DNA from: an uncultured Phascolarctobacterium sp.
GTDB taxonomy: Bacteria > Bacillota > Negativicutes > Acidaminococcales > Acidaminococcaceae
Length of the DNA stretch: 48,224 nt
Reading direction: 5' to 3'
NCBI GenBank assembly: GCA_947629685.1
Contig: CANREP010000014.1
Coordinates: 1-48,224 of the forward strand
Shown: positions 21,795-44,558 of the stretch, piece after piece
Layout of the letters: the number at the start of each line of letters is the position of its first letter
Numbering within the stretch: position 1 is the stretch's first letter
The notes under the pieces: generated by a model
Told to the model about the DNA's origin: nothing
The model's input: the letters and a program-made list of their open reading frames with translations, nothing else
Database searches by the model: none
Program-made: the position numbers and the translations under genes

Positions 21795-22020
21795 AATAAA
21801 AATCCCTGACCTCTTGAAAAGGTCAGGGACGAAATAACTTTTTCGCGGTACCACCCTGATTACAGCCTGCGCTGTCACTCATTCGGCCTTGACGCAGCAT
21901 CACGTCCGCACATTTCCTTGCGGCTTCTCCGCAGCGAGTTCACCGGTAAACGTGTCTGACTTGCATCAACCGTCAGCTTTCTTGGCATCGTCTACAGATT
22001 ACTGCTCTGCTTCACTGAAT
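21795..22020 (-). ncRNA. T-box leader (leucine) before leuS
   Basis: The conserved T-box AGGGTGGTACCGCG lies at 21857-21844 on the minus strand. Just downstream, TCCCTGACC with GGTCAGGGA and TTTTTATTTTG forms the terminator (21800-21830). In Stem I, GCAG pairs with CTGC, and the specifier loop reads GGTGAA-CTC-GC, so the specifier at 21938-21936 is CTC, a leucine codon. Uncharged tRNA-Leu should stabilise the antiterminator and raise leuS expression. The specifier assignment is by eye. Confidence 0.92.
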
Positions 22021-22029
22021 TTCTTATAA

Positions 22030-23062: not shown

Positions 23063-23938
23063 TTATTCGCTAATTTTTTTGTAGCATTCCGGCCGTCTGT
23101 CACGGAAAAGCCCCCAGGAAAGCCTGTCCTGTGCCAAAGCCGCCAAATCAAACTCCTGCAGCAGTATCTCTTCCTGATCGCGGGAAGCGGATGCAAGTAT
23201 CTCGCCGGTACCGTCAGCAATGAAAGAAGACCCGTAAAAATTCAACGCTGACGACTGGTTGTTATTGGCTTCACAGGGCGTTACTTCTTCCAAACCTATC
23301 CTGTTAGCTGCAACAACCGGCATCAAATTGGCTGCCGCATGACCCTGCATAACTCTGCGCCAATGCGGCATACTGTCGCATTCCAGAATCGGTTCAGAGC
23401 CGATTGCCGTAGGATAAAACAGGATTTCCGCACCTTGGATAGCCATACAGCGGGCAGTTTCAGGAAACCACTGATCCCAGCAGATACCGATGCCGATAAC
23501 GCCGTATTTGGTATTGAATACGCGGAAGCCGGAATCTCCGGGCGAAAAATAAAATTTTTCCTGATAGAAATGATCGTCAGGAATATGGGTTTTACGATAC
23601 ACGCCCAAAATCTTACCGTCAGCATCAATACAGGCTACAGAATTATACAGTCTGTTGATGTCACGTTCATAAAAGCTTATCGGCAGCACTACCTGCAGCT
23701 CTTTAGCCAGACGCATACCCATCTGTACCGCAGGGTCTTGCTCAGTCTGCTGAGCATAATTATAAAAATCATAACGACGCTGCTGACAGAAATACTCTCT
23801 GGCAAACAGCTCCGGCAGCAGGATGATATTCGCTCCCTGCGCCGCAGCTTTACGCACCATTTTTTCAGCGGCAGCCAGGCTTTGCTCTACTTCCGGGTAG
23901 CAGCGCATTTGGACTGCCGCAACGACTACTTTGCTCAT
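23063..23938 (-). CDS. aguB: N-carbamoylputrescine amidase
   Basis: Nitrilase-superfamily enzyme that hydrolyses N-carbamoylputrescine to putrescine, CO2 and ammonia. The Glu-Lys-Cys triad is visible: LLPELFAREYF near residue 42, GVYRKTHIPDD near 117 and IGIGICWDQWFPETAR near 150. Length 291 matches the plant-type AguB. The ATG overlaps the aguA stop by four bases. Placement after agmatine deiminase makes the substrate assignment firm. Confidence 0.94.
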   Translation of the reverse strand: MSKVVVAAVQMRCYPEVEQSLAAAEKMVRKAAAQGANIILLPELFAREYFCQQRRYDFYNYAQQTEQDPAVQMGMRLAKELQVVLPISFYERDINRLYNSVACIDADGKILGVYRKTHIPDDHFYQEKFYFSPGDSGFRVFNTKYGVIGIGICWDQWFPETARCMAIQGAEILFYPTAIGSEPILECDSMPHWRRVMQGHAAANLMPVVAANRIGLEEVTPCEANNNQSSALNFYGSSFIADGTGEILASASRDQEEILLQEFDLAALAQDRLSWGLFRDRRPECYKKISE

Positions 23939-25056
23939 AGCTTTACTCCTTTAGGAATCTGTTGGGTAATGCAGTGAATATTGCCGCCGCCCGTCAAGAT
24001 AGCGCGCGCCGGTACGACAACGACGCTGCGGTCAGGGAACAGTTTCTGCAAAATCTTCTCTGCCCTGCTGTCGCTCTCTACATTTTCACCGCCAAAGGCC
24101 GGCATTATCACAGCCTTATTGGCAATATAAAAATTAACATAAGAAGCGGCCAGTCTTTCCCCTGCTTCGCGCATATCCTCGCCGTCCTCAAAATCGTAGC
24201 CGCCCACTTCATCTTCCCTGATGCAGACCGGCACATCCGGCACCGGCAGCTTATGCACGATAATTTTTCTGCCGCAGGCGTCCGTTTCATTTTCCAGCTT
24301 TTGCAGGCAGGCCAGCGACATGGCATACTGCGGATCGTCCTCTTTATCCGTCCAGGCCAACACTACTTCACCGGGCGCCGTAAAGGCACAGACATTATCC
24401 ACATGCTCATTGGTCTCATCGTTATAAATACCGCGCGGCAGCCAGATAACTTTCTTTGCCCCCAGATAGTCCTTGAGTTTTTGTTCAATCTGTTCTTTAG
24501 TAAGTTTGGGATTGCGTCCCGCACTGAGCAGGCAGCTTTCCGTCACCATTACCGTGCCTTCGCCGTCGCTGTGGATAGCGCCGCCTTCCATAACAAAAGG
24601 AGCAGCATTATACATCCGGCAGCCATATCTTTCTGCAAAGGACGCTGCAAAAGCATTATCTTTCTCCCATGATGGATACAAGCCGTCAACCTCGCCGCCC
24701 CAGGCATTAAAGTTCCAGTTGATACAGCGCAAAACGCCCTTGCCATTCACTACAAAGGTAGGCCCAATATCTCTGGCCCAGGAATCGTCAGTCTCCATAT
24801 TGATAATCTCAATATTTTCCACATCAGCAAGCATTTCCTGCGCGCTGGCGATGGAAGCGCTGCCGGCAACGACATATACTTTTTCGCTGGCAGCAATGGC
24901 CTTGATGACTGCCGTAAAAGCCTCGCGCGCCTCGCGGGCGCCAAAGCTCCAGGAGCCAGGACGCTCGGGCCAGACAATGATACAGCCTTCATGCTCCGCA
25001 AATTCAGCCGGCATATAAAAGCCGTCTTCACGCGGCAAAGTATGTAAAAATTCCAT
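23935..25056 (-). CDS. aguA: Agmatine deiminase
   Basis: Converts agmatine to N-carbamoylputrescine and ammonia; a member of the peptidyl-arginine-deiminase-like family. MPAEFAEHEGCIIVWPERPG near residue 15, NMETDDSWARDIGPTFVVN near 87, VMEGGAIHSDGEGT near 150 and NEHVDNVCAF near 220 are the substrate and His blocks; the C-terminal GGGNIHCITQQIP contains the nucleophilic Cys. Length about 373 is normal. The start is ATG 25056, two codons after the nspC stop. Confidence 0.95.
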   Translation of the reverse strand: MEFLHTLPREDGFYMPAEFAEHEGCIIVWPERPGSWSFGAREAREAFTAVIKAIAASEKVYVVAGSASIASAQEMLADVENIEIINMETDDSWARDIGPTFVVNGKGVLRCINWNFNAWGGEVDGLYPSWEKDNAFAASFAERYGCRMYNAAPFVMEGGAIHSDGEGTVMVTESCLLSAGRNPKLTKEQIEQKLKDYLGAKKVIWLPRGIYNDETNEHVDNVCAFTAPGEVVLAWTDKEDDPQYAMSLACLQKLENETDACGRKIIVHKLPVPDVPVCIREDEVGGYDFEDGEDMREAGERLAASYVNFYIANKAVIMPAFGGENVESDSRAEKILQKLFPDRSVVVVPARAILTGGGNIHCITQQIPKGVKL

Positions 25057-25060
25057 TTCT

Positions 25061-26179
25061 TTACGAAAGCCTTTCCTTAAAATCCTCATAACCAAAACGC
25101 TTGATCAGCCTCGTGCTGCCGTCCTCTTCCAAAAGTACGATATCTGGCAGCGGTATGCCGTTGAAGGTATTATTCTTGACCATAGAATAGATGGCCATAT
25201 CTTCAAAGATAAGATTGTCACCAATCTTGACAGGCTGTTCAAAGCTGTAGTCGCCGATTACGTCGCCTGCCAGACAGGTCAGCGACGACAGGCGGTATGT
25301 ATAAGCTTTTTCACCCGCCGGATAACCGCCGCGCAGAGGCGGTCGGTACGGCATTTCGATTACGTCCGGCATATGGCAGGCTGCAGAAGCGTCCAAAATC
25401 AGGATATCCAGACCGTTATGCACGATATCCATGACCTCGGTTACAAGATAACCGGCATTGAGCGCAAAGGCTTCTCCCGGCTCCAGATATACTTCTACAT
25501 CATATTTTTCTCTGATATATTTAATCAGGCTGATAAGAGCGTCCACATCATAATCGGCTCTGGTAATATGATGGCCGCCGCCCATATTGAGCCATTTCAT
25601 TTGATAAAGATATTTGCCAAATTTTTCTTCAAAAGCTTGAAAAGTACTGAGTAAATCATCAGAATTCTGCTCGCATAAGGTATGAAAATGCAGTCCGTCT
25701 ATACCGTCGAGCAAATCTTCGCGGAAATTAGCCAATGTCACACCTAAACGGGAGCCAGGTGCGCATGGGTCATAGATAGCGTGGTCGCCTTGCGTAGAAT
25801 GCTCTGGATTTACACGGATACCGACGCTAACATTATCGCACAGTGCTTTATGCTTTTCATACTGCGCAAAAGAGTTGAAAATGATATGGTCGCAGATTTT
25901 TACCAGCTCACGCATATCTTCCGTCTTATACGCAGGCGCAAAAACGTGGTTTTCCTTGCCCATCTCCTCATACCCCAGCCTGGCTTCATACAGTCCGCTG
26001 GCCGTAGTGCCGGAAACATATTCGGCAATCATCGGGTACAGGGCAAACATGGAAAAAGCTTTCTGCGCCAGCAGGATATGACAGCCGGTTTTCTTTTCTA
26101 CCTGCTGCAGCACTTCTAAATTCTTACGGATTTTTTCCCTGCTTACAACATAACAGGGAGTACGCAGATTTTCCAGCAT
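25061..26179 (-). CDS. nspC: Carboxynorspermidine/carboxyspermidine decarboxylase
   Basis: PLP enzyme of the alanine-racemase/group IV decarboxylase fold that removes CO2 from carboxy(nor)spermidine. The PLP lysine lies in ILLAQKAFSMF near residue 40; VGIRVNPEHSTQGDHAIYDP near 130, GLHFHTLCEQN near 170, NMGGGHHITR near 205, EPGEAFALNAG near 240 and LDASAACHMPDVIEMPYRP near 270 (the other-subunit Cys) are all present. Length 372 is normal. Its ATG lies one base after the stop of the carboxynorspermidine synthase gene; these two enzymes form the S-adenosylmethionine-independent spermidine route. Confidence 0.94.
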   Translation of the reverse strand: MLENLRTPCYVVSREKIRKNLEVLQQVEKKTGCHILLAQKAFSMFALYPMIAEYVSGTTASGLYEARLGYEEMGKENHVFAPAYKTEDMRELVKICDHIIFNSFAQYEKHKALCDNVSVGIRVNPEHSTQGDHAIYDPCAPGSRLGVTLANFREDLLDGIDGLHFHTLCEQNSDDLLSTFQAFEEKFGKYLYQMKWLNMGGGHHITRADYDVDALISLIKYIREKYDVEVYLEPGEAFALNAGYLVTEVMDIVHNGLDILILDASAACHMPDVIEMPYRPPLRGGYPAGEKAYTYRLSSLTCLAGDVIGDYSFEQPVKIGDNLIFEDMAIYSMVKNNTFNGIPLPDIVLLEEDGSTRLIKRFGYEDFKERLS

Positions 26180-26180
26180 C

Positions 26181-27440
26181 TTATTCTACCACTGCCGGAT
26201 CTTCTACAACTACCCAGGGCAGGCCGTATTCGTTCAGCATTTCCATATACGGATCGGGATCAAATTCTTCTACGTTGAAGACGCCGGGTTTGTGCCATGC
26301 CTTGGTCATTACCAGGGCAGTGCCAATCATAGCCGGTACACCGGTAGTGTAGGAAATAGCCTGAGAGCCAACTTCTTTGTAGCATTCCTGATGGTCGCAG
26401 ACATTGTAGATATAGATAGTTCTTTCCTTGCCGTCCTTGCGTCCGGTAAAGATGCAGCCGATATTGGTCTTGCCCACGGTACGCGGTCCCAAAGAAGCCG
26501 GATCCGGCAGCAATGCTTTCAGGAACTGGATAGGCACGACTTCGTGTCCTTCATACAGCATCGGCTTAGTAGAAAGCATACCTACATTTTCCAGACATTT
26601 CATATGGGTCAGATAGCTCTGGCCAAAGGTCATAAAGAAACGGATTCTCTTGACGCCGGGAATATTCTTGGCCAGAGATTCGATTTCCTCATGGTGCAGC
26701 AAATACATATCTTTCATACCAACTTCGGGGAAATCATATTCGCGCTTGATTTCCATAGGCTCAGTTTCTACCCAATGGCCGTTTTCCCAGTAGGAGCCGT
26801 TAGCAGATACTTCGCGCAGGTTAATTTCAGGGTTAAAGTTGGTAGCAAAAGGATAACCGTGGTCACCGCCATTGCAGTCCAGAATATCAATAGTGTCAAT
26901 TTCGTCAAAATAATGTTTCAGTGCATAAGCGGAAAAAACGCTGGTAACGCCGGGGTCAAAACCGGTGCCTAACAGGCCCATGATGCCTGCATCGGCAAAT
27001 TTTTCTTTATAGGCCCATTGCCAGGAATAATCAAAATAGGCGGTAAAGCCTTCTTCCTTGCAGCGTTTGTCGTAAACGGCACGCCATTCGGGGTCATCAA
27101 TATTTTCCGGCTCATAGTTAGCAGTATCAATGTAGTCAACTTTACATTCCAGGCAGGCATCCATAATAGTAAGATCCTGATACGGCAAAGCCACATTCAG
27201 CACCGCATCCGGCTGATATGCTTTAATCAGCTCTACCAGTTCCGCTTTATTGTCCGCATCTACTTTAGCGGTAGTAATCACAGTCGCAGTTTTACCTTCC
27301 AGTTCCGCTTTCAGGGCGTCGCATTTTTCTTTCGTCCTGCTGGCGATGCACAATTCAGTAAACACCTTGTCATTCTGACAGCATTTAAAAATAGCTACTC
27401 TTGCTACGCCGCCGCAGCCAATAACCAATAATTTTCCCAT
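26181..27440 (-). CDS. Carboxynorspermidine synthase (saccharopine dehydrogenase family)
   Basis: NADPH-dependent reductive condensation of aspartate beta-semialdehyde with putrescine (or diaminopropane) to carboxyspermidine. The N-terminal LLVIGCGGVARVAIFKC is the dinucleotide-binding fold; LNVALPYQDLTIMDACLECKVDYIDTANYEP near residue 85-115 is the family block, and GTGFDPGVTSVFSAYALKHYFDEIDTI near 160 follows. The 419-residue length fits CASDH rather than the lysine enzyme. With nspC immediately downstream and arginine-to-putrescine genes around it, the spermidine role is much more likely than lysine metabolism. Confidence 0.9.
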   Translation of the reverse strand: MGKLLVIGCGGVARVAIFKCCQNDKVFTELCIASRTKEKCDALKAELEGKTATVITTAKVDADNKAELVELIKAYQPDAVLNVALPYQDLTIMDACLECKVDYIDTANYEPENIDDPEWRAVYDKRCKEEGFTAYFDYSWQWAYKEKFADAGIMGLLGTGFDPGVTSVFSAYALKHYFDEIDTIDILDCNGGDHGYPFATNFNPEINLREVSANGSYWENGHWVETEPMEIKREYDFPEVGMKDMYLLHHEEIESLAKNIPGVKRIRFFMTFGQSYLTHMKCLENVGMLSTKPMLYEGHEVVPIQFLKALLPDPASLGPRTVGKTNIGCIFTGRKDGKERTIYIYNVCDHQECYKEVGSQAISYTTGVPAMIGTALVMTKAWHKPGVFNVEEFDPDPYMEMLNEYGLPWVVVEDPAVVE

Positions 27441-27488: not shown

Positions 27489-28343
27489 TTATTTTTCTTC
27501 TTCTTCCAGCATATCTTCCACATACTTAGGCAGCATGAACGCCCCTAAATGCAGATTAGTCGTATAATACCAGGTCTTGATATTGCGTTCTTTCCATCTC
27601 TTGGCATCCAAATCTTTCAGCGGATGGTATTTTTTAGACAGGAAACCGAACAGCCAGTACCCTGATGAGCAGGTTGGTATATGCGCCTGATACACCCTGC
27701 TGATAGGAAAGCTGTGACTGGCCTTGCGGTGCATAGCCCGGCATGATTCCTCATCCTCGTCATAGAAAGGGCTGCCATGCTGATAGACCATAATGCCGTC
27801 TTCCTTAAGCGCACGGTAGCAGTTGCCGTAAAACTCCTTGGTAAAAAGGCCTGCCGCATGTCCCAGCGGATCGATAGCATCATTGATAATCAAATCATAT
27901 TCATTTTGTCTGGCCCGCAGGAATTTCAGCCCGTTTTCGTTATAGACAGTAACCCTTGCATCGTCCAGTCCACGGGCATTATCGGGGAAAAATTCCCGGC
28001 AGACGTCAACGAAGACTTTGTCCGTTTCCACGACGTCAATCTGTTCTATCTCGTCATAATACGAAAGTTCACGAGCCACGCCGCCGTCGCCGCCGCCTAT
28101 TACCAGCACTTTCTTTACGCAAGGATGTACGGCCATAGGTACATGTACGATCATTTCGTCGTAGGTAAATTCGTCTTTTTCCGAAAAGACAATACTGCCG
28201 TCGCAGCTTAAAAAGCGTCCGAATTCCGCTGATTCAAACACATCGATGCGCTGAAAGTCAGTGTCTTCGCCAAACAGCTGCTTATCAACCTTGACATCTA
28301 TCTTAACCTTATCTGTATGATAATCCGAAAACCACAGCTCCAT
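27489..28343 (-). CDS. speE: Spermidine synthase-like aminopropyltransferase
   Basis: Transfers an aminopropyl group from decarboxylated S-adenosylmethionine to a diamine, usually putrescine. FQRIDVFESAEFGRFLSCDG near residue 30, VLVIGGGDGGVARELSYYD near 80, DVVETDK near 105 and YDLIINDAIDPLGHAAGLF near 150 (catalytic Asp) are present. In the block usually written YHEM in bacterial enzymes, this protein has YDEMIVHVPM. A cysteine-containing PTCSSGYWLFG lies near 230. The start is ATG 28343, after GAGGTG; length 284 is normal. No speD, whose product is needed for the donor, is present in the window. Confidence 0.88.
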   Translation of the reverse strand: MELWFSDYHTDKVKIDVKVDKQLFGEDTDFQRIDVFESAEFGRFLSCDGSIVFSEKDEFTYDEMIVHVPMAVHPCVKKVLVIGGGDGGVARELSYYDEIEQIDVVETDKVFVDVCREFFPDNARGLDDARVTVYNENGLKFLRARQNEYDLIINDAIDPLGHAAGLFTKEFYGNCYRALKEDGIMVYQHGSPFYDEDEESCRAMHRKASHSFPISRVYQAHIPTCSSGYWLFGFLSKKYHPLKDLDAKRWKERNIKTWYYTTNLHLGAFMLPKYVEDMLEEEEK

Positions 28344-28361
28344 AAGCCACCTCATTACATT

Positions 28362-29813
28362 TTATAATGCCAGTACGTTCACCCTGTTGACCTCGGGATC
28401 TTCCGGCCCCTGCATGGAACAGCCTTTTTCCTTGGCATAAACTATATATTCGATAATTTCTTTGGTAATGATTTCTCCCGGCGCCAGGATAGGAATACCG
28501 GGTGGATAACACATAACGAACTCGCTGCAGATCATACCGCTGCTTTCCTTGATGGGCACAGATTTTTTGCGGGAATAAAAAGCCTTCTGCGGCGATACCG
28601 CTACTTTAGGCGTAATATATTCCGTGTTCAGCATCTTGGACGGGTCTTTGGAGTACAGGCGCTTGATATCTGCCAATGCGCCAACCAGTCTCTCTATATC
28701 CTGGATGGTATCACCTATGGAAACATAGGCCAAAATATTGGCGATATCACCAAACTCAATCTGGATATCGTACTCATCGCGCAGCAGATCGTATACCTCG
28801 ATACCGGCCAGACCTATATCACGGGTATAAACAGACAGCTTGGTTACGTCAAAATCATAGATGCTTCTGCCGTTGATCAGCTCGCGTCCGTAAGCATAAA
28901 ACCCACCGATAGAATTTATTTCCTCGCGGGCATATTCTGCCATAGCCTGCACCTTAGCAAAAGACATCTCCCCGCGCATTACCAGGTTACGCCGGGAAAT
29001 ATCCAGACTGGAAAGCAGCAGATAGGACGCGCTGGTAGTCTGTGTCAGATTGATAATCTGGCTGACATATTCCCAGTTGACGTTTTTACCCGTCAACAGC
29101 AGCGAACTCTGCGTCAGGCTGCCGCCGGACTTGTGCATAGAAACGGAAGCCATATCCGCGCCTGCTTCCATAGCGCTGACCGGCATATTACTGCCGAAAT
29201 AAAAGTGCGTTCCGTGCGCTTCATCAACCAGCGCCAGCATATTATGCTCATGAGCAAGCTTGACGATGCTGCGTAAATCAGAACAGATACCATAATAGGT
29301 AGGATTATTTACCAACACGCAGGTTGCGTCAGGATTGGCCAGAATCGCCTTTTCCACCTCGCCGATTTCCATACCCAGCGAGATGCCCAGTTTCTTGTCT
29401 ACCTCGGGATTGACATACACCGGCACCGCGCCGCACAGTACCAGCGCATTGATGACGCTTTTATGCACGTTGCGCGGCAGGATAATCTTATCCCCGGCCT
29501 TGCAGGCGGTCAGCACCATGCTCTGCACGGAGGACGTAGTTCCGCCGACCATAAAAAAAGCATGGTTGGCGCCAAAAGCCTCAGCTGCCAGTTCTTCCGC
29601 ATCTCTGATGACGGACACCGGATGACATAAGTTATCCAGCGGTTTCATCGAGTTTACGTCCAGGCTGACGCATTTTTCTCCCAGCAGCTCCTTTAATTCA
29701 GGATTGCCGCGTCCCCGTTTATGTCCAGGCACATCAAAGGGCACTACTCTTTTTTTTCTGAAGGCTTCCAACGCTTCATAAATCGGCGCTGATTTCTGTG
29801 AAGGCTTTCCCAT
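28362..29813 (-). CDS. speA: Biosynthetic arginine decarboxylase (Orn/Lys/Arg decarboxylase family)
   Basis: PLP fold-I decarboxylase that makes agmatine from arginine. FDVPGHKRGRGNPELKELLG near residue 23, MVGGTTSSVQSMVLTACKAGD near 85, LVDEAHGTHFYFG near 195 and VSMHKSGGSLTQSSLLLTG near 225 (PLP lysine in HKSGG) are plain; the C-terminal domain ends with GMICSEFVMCYPPGIPILAPGE. The 483-residue form is that of Bacillus SpeA, without the N-terminal wing of inducible enzymes. Arginine rather than lysine or ornithine is supported by aguA and aguB in the same operon. A ~350-base structured leader precedes it. Confidence 0.93.
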   Translation of the reverse strand: MGKPSQKSAPIYEALEAFRKKRVVPFDVPGHKRGRGNPELKELLGEKCVSLDVNSMKPLDNLCHPVSVIRDAEELAAEAFGANHAFFMVGGTTSSVQSMVLTACKAGDKIILPRNVHKSVINALVLCGAVPVYVNPEVDKKLGISLGMEIGEVEKAILANPDATCVLVNNPTYYGICSDLRSIVKLAHEHNMLALVDEAHGTHFYFGSNMPVSAMEAGADMASVSMHKSGGSLTQSSLLLTGKNVNWEYVSQIINLTQTTSASYLLLSSLDISRRNLVMRGEMSFAKVQAMAEYAREEINSIGGFYAYGRELINGRSIYDFDVTKLSVYTRDIGLAGIEVYDLLRDEYDIQIEFGDIANILAYVSIGDTIQDIERLVGALADIKRLYSKDPSKMLNTEYITPKVAVSPQKAFYSRKKSVPIKESSGMICSEFVMCYPPGIPILAPGEIITKEIIEYIVYAKEKGCSMQGPEDPEVNRVNVLAL

Positions 29814-29859
29814 AATTTTCTCCCAAATTCATTCTATTATTTCATTACGATCAGCAAAA

Positions 29860-30001
29860 TAAAAAACAGGTGATGCAAAAACATCACCTGTCAGTAAACT
29901 ACGCAATGACTGCTGTTAAATTATAACAACAGTAAACCGCTTCCAGAGTCTATACAGCAAATATTACTTTTACTACTCTTATTGACTTTCACAAGTGATG
30001 T
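29860..30001 (-). promoter_or_regulatory. Structured leader with attenuator before speA
   Basis: On the minus strand, ACATCACTTGT (30001-29991) can pair over 11 bp with ACAGGTGATGT (29891-29881). The same ACAGGTGATG is also the 5' half of a perfect terminator hairpin with CATCACCTGT (29875-29866) and a run of T. The two pairings exclude each other. Inside the first pairing lie AGAGT/ACTCT and a 9-bp hairpin CTGTTGTTA/TAACAGCAG, so the domain looks like a three-way junction aptamer or attenuator. When the outer stem forms, the operon would be read. It lacks a T-box sequence and does not match riboswitch classes I can recall. Confidence 0.7.
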
Positions 30002-30036
30002 CTAATCCTGATTACTGAATAATCTACTTATAAAAT

Positions 30037-30114
30037 CTGAGCCGCAGCTCAGTCAATAATGTGGTATTTAGCCACGCTTCGGCAGCTGCCCCGCCTGTCC
30101 GTATGGGCTTGACT
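30037..30114 (-). other. GC-rich structured element in the speA leader
   Basis: A compact, GC-rich block in an AT-rich leader. The minus-strand ends AGTCAA and TTGACT pair; inside are GTGG/CCAC around CTAAATA and a GGCAGCTGCC palindrome. Directly after it, CTGAGC-TGCG-GCTCAG followed by ATTTTAT forms a hairpin that shares bases with the closing stem. It may be a riboswitch-like domain or a small palindromic repeat that has landed in the leader. I cannot name a family. A short reading frame within it on either strand is not supported as a gene. Confidence 0.45.
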
Positions 30115-30169
30115 ATAAAAATAGTGGGCGAATATTTGCATGAAAGCAGTCCGCATTCATGTATTTATA

Positions 30170-30199
30170 ATTATATCATAGTTGTAAATATTTTTACAA
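30170..30199 (-). promoter_or_regulatory. Putative promoter of the polyamine operon
   Basis: Minus-strand TTGTAA and TATAAT are separated by 18 bases, just past the stop of the upstream gene (30217). It would give a leader of about 350 bases before speA. Confidence 0.5.
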
Positions 30200-30216
30200 T
30201 AAAAACTTATCCCTGC

Positions 30217-44343: not shown

Positions 44344-44419
44344 TGAATACTTCTTCTCATACACTGCCATAATGCAATTTAGAATATTCATACGCTTTCT
44401 GTCCCTCGCAGAAAATACA

Positions 44420-44535
44420 TATATTCTGAGGCTGCGATCTGACTTTGCCCAAAGGCTTCACAGTGGCGTGACCGTTGCGGATTTACACCGCATTCCCTAA
44501 TTTACCTCTTCTAAGAGAGCACCTCAGATGATATT
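44420..44535 (-). ncRNA. Cobalamin (B12) riboswitch aptamer
   Basis: Minus-strand text contains the B12 box and its surroundings: AGGGAATGCGGTGTAAATCC, then GCAACGGTCACGCCACTGTG, AAGCC and GTCAGATCGCAGCC, all in the order of the AdoCbl-class element. Upstream, GAGGTGCTCTCTTAGAAGAGG provides the P1-P3 region. Cobalamin binding should favour the terminator at 44310-44343 and switch the importer off, as in other B12 leaders. Boundaries are approximate. Confidence 0.93.
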
Positions 44536-44558
44536 TTTATCAAAATATCTTATTTAAT

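Follow-up and report, generated by a model that had tools for sequence, protein, structure and literature searches.

The window, the whole 48,224-nt stretch of Phascolarctobacterium DNA analysed here, carries on its minus strand a polyamine operon with the gene order speA-speE-CASDH-nspC-aguA-aguB. The first gene, speA (28362–29813), encodes a small Orn/Lys/Arg decarboxylase of the aspartate-aminotransferase fold, the substrate of which lies beyond the resolution of the models used. It is followed by speE (27489–28355; spermidine synthase or polyamine aminopropyltransferase), a relative of carboxynorspermidine synthase (CASDH, 26181–27440; 411.7 bits, under the family cut-off of 800), nspC (25061–26179; carboxynorspermidine decarboxylase), aguA (23935–25095; agmatine deiminase), and aguB (23063–23938; N-carbamoylputrescine amidase). 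Upstream of speA on the same strand lies a promoter-like sequence, TTGTAA-18-TATAAT (30199–30170), which has an extended −10 element (TG before the −10) and is recognised by consensus match only. It agrees with the transcript start near 30163 proposed in an earlier note on this DNA, although such sites occur near chance frequency in the AT-rich leader region (2 found versus 1.6 expected). Elsewhere in the window, a T-box leader precedes leuS (21822–22024, 112 bits), and a cobalamin riboswitch is located at 44413–44541 (50.8 bits).

The leader of speA contains a conserved folded domain of about 215–220 nt (30150–29936, minus strand), which is closed by a long stem, P1. The covariance model of the full domain, R1 (222 positions), matches 29945–30152 on the minus strand with 171.7 bits (E 6.4e-45), a score that is partly circular in that the window is among the 48 training sequences. 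P1 is composed of an outer duplex, in which ACTGCTTTC (30150–30142) pairs with GGAAGCGGT (29944–29936), and an inner duplex, in which GCAAATATT (30139–30131) pairs with 29965–29957. Within P1, the 5′ module (30130–30079), including P2, P2a, and P2b, corresponds to the Rfam family RF02440, 'SpF59 sRNA / ldcC RNA', and matches positions 1–54 of its 54-position model with 59.3 bits against a gathering cut-off of 37.2 (cmscan). The loop of P2b, AUACGGACA, is near-invariant. Both P1 and the RF02440 match were absent from the first reading of the sequence.

The 5′ module is followed by the covarying P3 hairpin (GTGG/CCAC, 30061–30075), the 5′ strand of P4, TTATTGAC (30052–30059, partner 29986–29979), which is near-invariant in relatives and covaries weakly, the P4a hairpin (GAGC/GCTC, 30039–30050), the 5′ strand of P5, AAGT (30026–30029, partner ACTT at 29996–29993), and the P5a hairpin (GATTA/TAATC, 30010–30024). 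The 3′ core (29957–29996), comprising ACTTGTGAA, GTCAATA, AGAGTAGTAAAAGTA, and AATATTTGC, supplies 3′ strands of P4 and P1, and its blocks are kept even in reduced members of the family. In the window, all ten helices are built from standard pairs alone, while the blocks AGAGUAGUAAAAGUA and CUUGUGAA are near-invariant and unpaired. One further pairing, P5b, had been read from a single sequence and was dropped after it failed in the alignment. A 3′ hairpin pairing, AGAGU/ACUCU (29978–29946 in the window), is nearly invariant and crosses or competes with P1, and in many Clostridia the outer strand of P1 (5′ AGAGUC) pairs with GACUCU as well; the AGAGU/ACUCU pairing possibly represents a pseudoknot or an additional switch.

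Between the folded domain and speA lies an intrinsic terminator with a T run (29891–29860), ACAGGTGATG-loop-CATCACCTGT, the perfect 10-bp stem of which (29891–29882/29875–29866) has a folding energy of −18.7 kcal/mol. The terminator is also recovered by a pattern scan, which finds 2 terminator-like sites versus 0.3 expected in shuffled sequence. Its 5′ arm, ACAGGTGATGT (29891–29881), doubles as the 3′ strand of an antiterminator, the 5′ strand of which, ACATCACTTGT (30001–29991), resides in the conserved core ACTTGTGAA. A base-by-base check gives 11 standard pairs out of 11, one of them G-U. Across the whole leader, 30001–29991 is the best partner of the terminator 5′ arm (−17.3 kcal/mol), and none of 200 first-order Markov-shuffled leaders attains this value (mean −9.9, sd 1.8). 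Both the terminator and the competing pairing that re-uses its arm had been proposed in the earlier note, and both hold exactly where it placed them.

Because P5 uses the same core strand, the folded domain and the antiterminator are mutually exclusive. The earlier note had placed an aptamer between the strands of the outer pairing; a structured domain does exist, but it lies mainly upstream of that pairing and contains the antiterminator strand. In stepwise folding, with polymerase at 29878, in the terminator loop, the antiterminator fold is ahead of the aptamer fold (−81.8 versus −75.9 kcal/mol); with the 3′ arm made, the terminator fold is ahead by about 10 kcal/mol. At equilibrium the window leader favours the terminator, and a kinetic choice during transcription is therefore assumed.

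Relatives of the leader were gathered by genome searches with RF02440 and one pattern scan of named genomes, giving over 180 loci. They occur in Paenibacillus, Bacillus, Neobacillus, Kurthia, Acidaminococcus, and Phascolarctobacterium, and also in Faecalibacterium, Flavonifractor, Lachnospiraceae, Oscillospiraceae and others. Conserved blocks, TTATTGATTGAG..CTCAAATTTTATAAGTTGGTTAC..ACTTGTGAAACGGTCAATAAGAGTAGTAAAAGTA..TTTGCTATATAGACTCT, extend about 150 nt beyond the RF02440 module in nearly all of them, and the full-length form is present even in a Bacilli genome with a divergent RF02440 sequence (L174). Of 162 leaders that precede a recognised gene, 148 have a terminator, a hairpin followed by a T run, in the stretch separating the RNA from the gene; visual inspection of the remaining 14 reveals terminators with interrupted stems in several. 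Among 78 dereplicated leaders, a simple duplex scan places the best partner of the terminator 5′ arm in the conserved ACTTGT core for 53% (versus about 8% by chance) and finds a stronger partner at another site for about half. In the same set, a leader's own arm-core pairing is stronger than swapped pairings (p about 1e-5), and both are stronger than pairings with shuffled arms. The family thereby bears out the earlier proposal of a riboswitch-like attenuator with mutually exclusive states, and has the expression platform of exclusive terminator and antiterminator that is expected of a riboswitch.

The structure of the domain is likewise conserved. When R1, built from 48 leaders, was used to align 100, in an alignment biased towards structure, 96.5% of cells were paired and 33 of 42 pairs had changed on both sides; sliding the partners by 1–3 columns lowered pairing to 29–43%. 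A tree-aware test (G statistic with APC; null obtained by placing the changes of each column anew on the tree) returned 5 pairs at E<0.05, all inside proposed helices (P2, P2a, and P3). The middle pair of P2b is G-C in 88 sequences and C-G in 12. The tree-aware test returned no significant covariation for P4, P5, or the 3′ hairpin, all three being nearly invariant, and the support for P4 and P5 is mostly consistency. RNAalifold on a plain MAFFT alignment recovered P2, P2a, P4, part of P4a, and the 3′ hairpin, and did not recover P1, P3, or P5a. P1 was misaligned by MAFFT and was therefore assessed by an alignment-free swap of partners among leaders less than 70% identical: its own flank duplexes reach −21.6 kcal/mol, versus −15.3 and −15.1 for swapped ones (p about 5e-15, n=98, a p-value made optimistic by relatedness). 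These comparisons indicate a conserved, aptamer-like domain with covariation, as in known riboswitches, in which some helices are invariant.

The genes downstream of the RNA share one metabolic theme. The first gene among 185 loci is speA in 71, CASDH in 53, speD in 40, and potA in 15; 5 of the remaining loci are too short, and 1, a fragment (L031), has no assigned first gene. Apart from one fragment, every relative with readable downstream sequence precedes speA, speD, CASDH, or potABCD. The potA loci are L021, L034, L044, L051, L053, L067, L074, L077, L084, L091, L109, L113, L133, L182, and L183, and NCBIfam models confirm genuine potABCD import operons at those that were examined. As an independent check, a search with R1 gave matches in 25 of 398 Bacillota genomes, 7 of which had been missed by RF02440, and all 7 of these carry the RNA before speA or speD. 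Within the family to which the window belongs, an orthologous speA (at least 71% identity) is present in 21 of 59 genomes, of which 19 have the RNA; it is found in none of the 38 genomes that lack the orthologue, most of which have a distant speA paralogue. Such consistent association with genes of one pathway is a feature of riboswitches.

Several individual loci deserve mention. Two genomes of one genus (G417 and G418, genus g273) have the orthologous speA and no detected RNA. The window's own genome carries a distant speA paralogue (35% identity; G000:C28:9284-10723), with no copy of the RNA detected there by R1. Within a single genus, the RNA precedes either speD-speA or potA, depending on the species (G326 versus G762 and G766). 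A divergent copy before speD (L087 3688–3905, 96 bits) lies on a contig binned as Synergistaceae and represents either an occurrence outside Bacillota or a binning error. At another locus, a c-di-GMP-I riboswitch lies near the polyamine leader on the opposite strand (L002 2514–2605).

RF02440 spans only some 25% of the conserved RNA and is typed in Rfam as an sRNA gene; otherwise, the leader gives chance matches only (cmscan, E up to 10). The earlier note had held that no known class fits. This stands for the T-box, for which there is no match, but the Rfam-wide check proposed there turns up RF02440 above its gathering cut-off, though as a 54-nt fragment of undescribed function. The family name leads to Streptococcus pneumoniae, where F59 of strain TIGR4 occupies the SP0915–SP0916 interval and is co-oriented with SP0916 = speA (PMC3395615), a gene given as arginine decarboxylase in the title of PMC7531197. 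As in the window, where the 5′ module matches the whole 54-position model, the RNA precedes speA; we equate the two by Rfam name and reported position. F59, also termed SN20 or srn235, was detected by tiling array as a separate 318-nt transcript, in which Kumar et al. (2010) suspected a switch of the FMN-like type (PMC2887815), and 318 nt is approximately the length of a leader up to its terminator. A literature search found no mention of RF02440 or 'ldcC RNA', which may go by another name, and nothing tying F59 or RF02440 to polyamine sensing; the sources consulted likewise held no description of P1, P3–P5, the core, the terminator switch, or the breadth of gene contexts.

The leader is modular, because its two halves each occur without the other. 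Specifically, the 3′ core occurs before polyamine genes without any RF02440-like module in 5 of the 7 loci found by R1 and missed by RF02440 (L203–L206 and L208), including two miniature forms of about 110 nt (L204 and L205) that are reduced to P1, the core ACTTGTGAA..AATAAGAGTAGTAAAAGTA, and a short counterpart of P4. The RF02440 module, in turn, is kept with a decayed 3′ core in four loci (L024, L031, L110, and L116), and in L024 the terminator arm GATGTTA matches an upstream TAACATC instead. Judged from these sequences, RF02440 is one of two modules and not the core of the family. Its filing as an sRNA gene looks wrong. Since the 5′ module or P5 is missing from reduced members, the switching step cannot be the same throughout the family. 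The leader could also be a composite of the 5′ RF02440 module and the P1-closed 3′ core (ACUUGUGAA...UCAAUAAGAGUAGUAAAAGUA) that controls polyamine homeostasis as a two-input regulator, with either a separate compound for each input or a single compound recognised at both sites, a reading that we regard as unlikely.

We consider it fairly probable that the leader attenuates transcription of the speA-speE-CASDH-nspC-aguA-aguB operon in cis and is most likely an OFF riboswitch for a polyamine. The nascent leader would fold into the domain of about 215 nt closed by P1. When polyamine is plentiful, the ligand would hold the domain, the core ACTT would stay in P5, and the antiterminator would be blocked, such that the terminator at 29891–29860 forms and transcription ends before speA. 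When polyamine is scarce, ACATCACTTGT would pair with the terminator 5′ arm, block the terminator, and let the operon be read. The direction is suggested by the folding steps: with the antiterminator ahead at 29878, the operon would be read without ligand and stopped by a ligand that holds the domain. We infer that the ligand binds directly and that it is most likely a polyamine end product, with spermidine as the first candidate and putrescine, norspermidine, and spermine next, because such a product is common to the arginine route, to the aminopropyl branches (SAM-dependent and aspartate-semialdehyde-dependent), and to import. Reports of polyamine riboswitches have been contested for a long time, since polyamines bind to RNA of any kind.

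Attenuation through the same terminator could instead be mediated by a protein, with the RNA serving as the site of a regulatory protein that reads the polyamine level, as PyrR and TRAP exemplify for proteins that control attenuation. What the analysis sees is a structured attenuator as such, extensive conserved leaders are able to serve as binding sites for proteins, and the near-invariant unpaired blocks AGAGUAGUAAAAGUA and CUUGUGAA suit a protein and a ligand alike. However, the RNA is spread over distant Bacillota families and four kinds of first gene, an unsystematic look noticed no regulator gene as a constant neighbour, and aptamers typically have complex folds of several helices, with internal loops that do not vary. 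We therefore regard a protein-binding site as unlikely, if a serious contender.

A riboswitch for another metabolite of the pathway, namely arginine, lysine, agmatine, SAM, decarboxylated SAM, or MTA, would fit the frequency of speA and speD as first genes, which are close to such metabolites. In 15 loci, however, the gene directly downstream is the importer gene potA (potABCD where read further), and the CASDH-first operons draw on other precursors, such that the common metabolite is the polyamine product; another metabolite as ligand is improbable, if likewise a serious contender. The earlier note had suggested a polyamine, arginine, or agmatine sensor. The polyamine appears favoured by gene context, while arginine and agmatine are less likely because the same RNA precedes potABCD importers and speD- and CASDH-first operons.

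If RF02440 were a trans-acting sRNA, as its Rfam filing implies, the terminator would end the sRNA and speA would follow by accident. The separate 318-nt pneumococcal transcript (PMC2887815) and the listing of F59 under lung in a pneumococcal fitness screen (PMC4387999) are consistent with this. However, a terminated leader would itself look like an sRNA of this type, and its mutation would affect speA; moreover, the RNA lies practically always directly upstream of polyamine genes on the same strand, and the antiterminator pairing co-varies with the terminator. A trans-acting role is thus very improbable.

The polyamine riboswitch that we favour shares its platform logic with T-box, cobalamin, and other attenuation leaders, although the leader matches neither the T-box (RF00230) nor the cobalamin model, and the window's own elements of these classes lie elsewhere. 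Leader-mediated control of a polyamine gene is shared with the speF leader (Salmonella; alpha-proteobacterial speF motif). The Salmonella speF leader reportedly works through a translated leader ORF, and a scan of 75 leaders of the present family found no conserved translated ORF. Attenuation by a leader peptide or ribosome stalling, for which arginine-responsive leader control of a Salmonella polyamine gene is a precedent (PMC6386406), is largely refuted and most improbable, with a short ORF and ribosome site in only 18 of the 75 leaders, at scattered positions and none in the window, and with anchor distances spread over all three frames.

The closest parallel in proposed function is the SAM-I-variant spermidine riboswitch of Salvail et al. 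(2023), which precedes polyamine genes in Gram-positive bacteria, opposes an intrinsic terminator to an alternative antiterminator, and turns OFF upon spermidine; it is the only polyamine riboswitch class that has found acceptance, is rare, with 13 known examples, and its discoverers expected more classes (PMC10853860). The window RNA resembles it in polyamine genes, Gram-positive hosts, and terminator/antiterminator logic, but has no recognisable shared aptamer and occurs in over 180 loci rather than 13. Consistent with this, no SAM-family match was found in the window leader at E up to 10, and the four-stem architecture of SAM-I is absent. Brewer 2021 reported the potE and odc1 motifs, not the leader RNA of the window. 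We propose the leader RNA as a candidate new riboswitch class. It is widespread in Bacillota, including gut commensals, precedes both synthesis and import operons, and has a readable terminator switch. If the proposed reading is true, the so far unexplained 'sRNA' of pneumococcus, and with it an Rfam family of 54 nt, would turn out to be a fragment of a cis-acting regulator.
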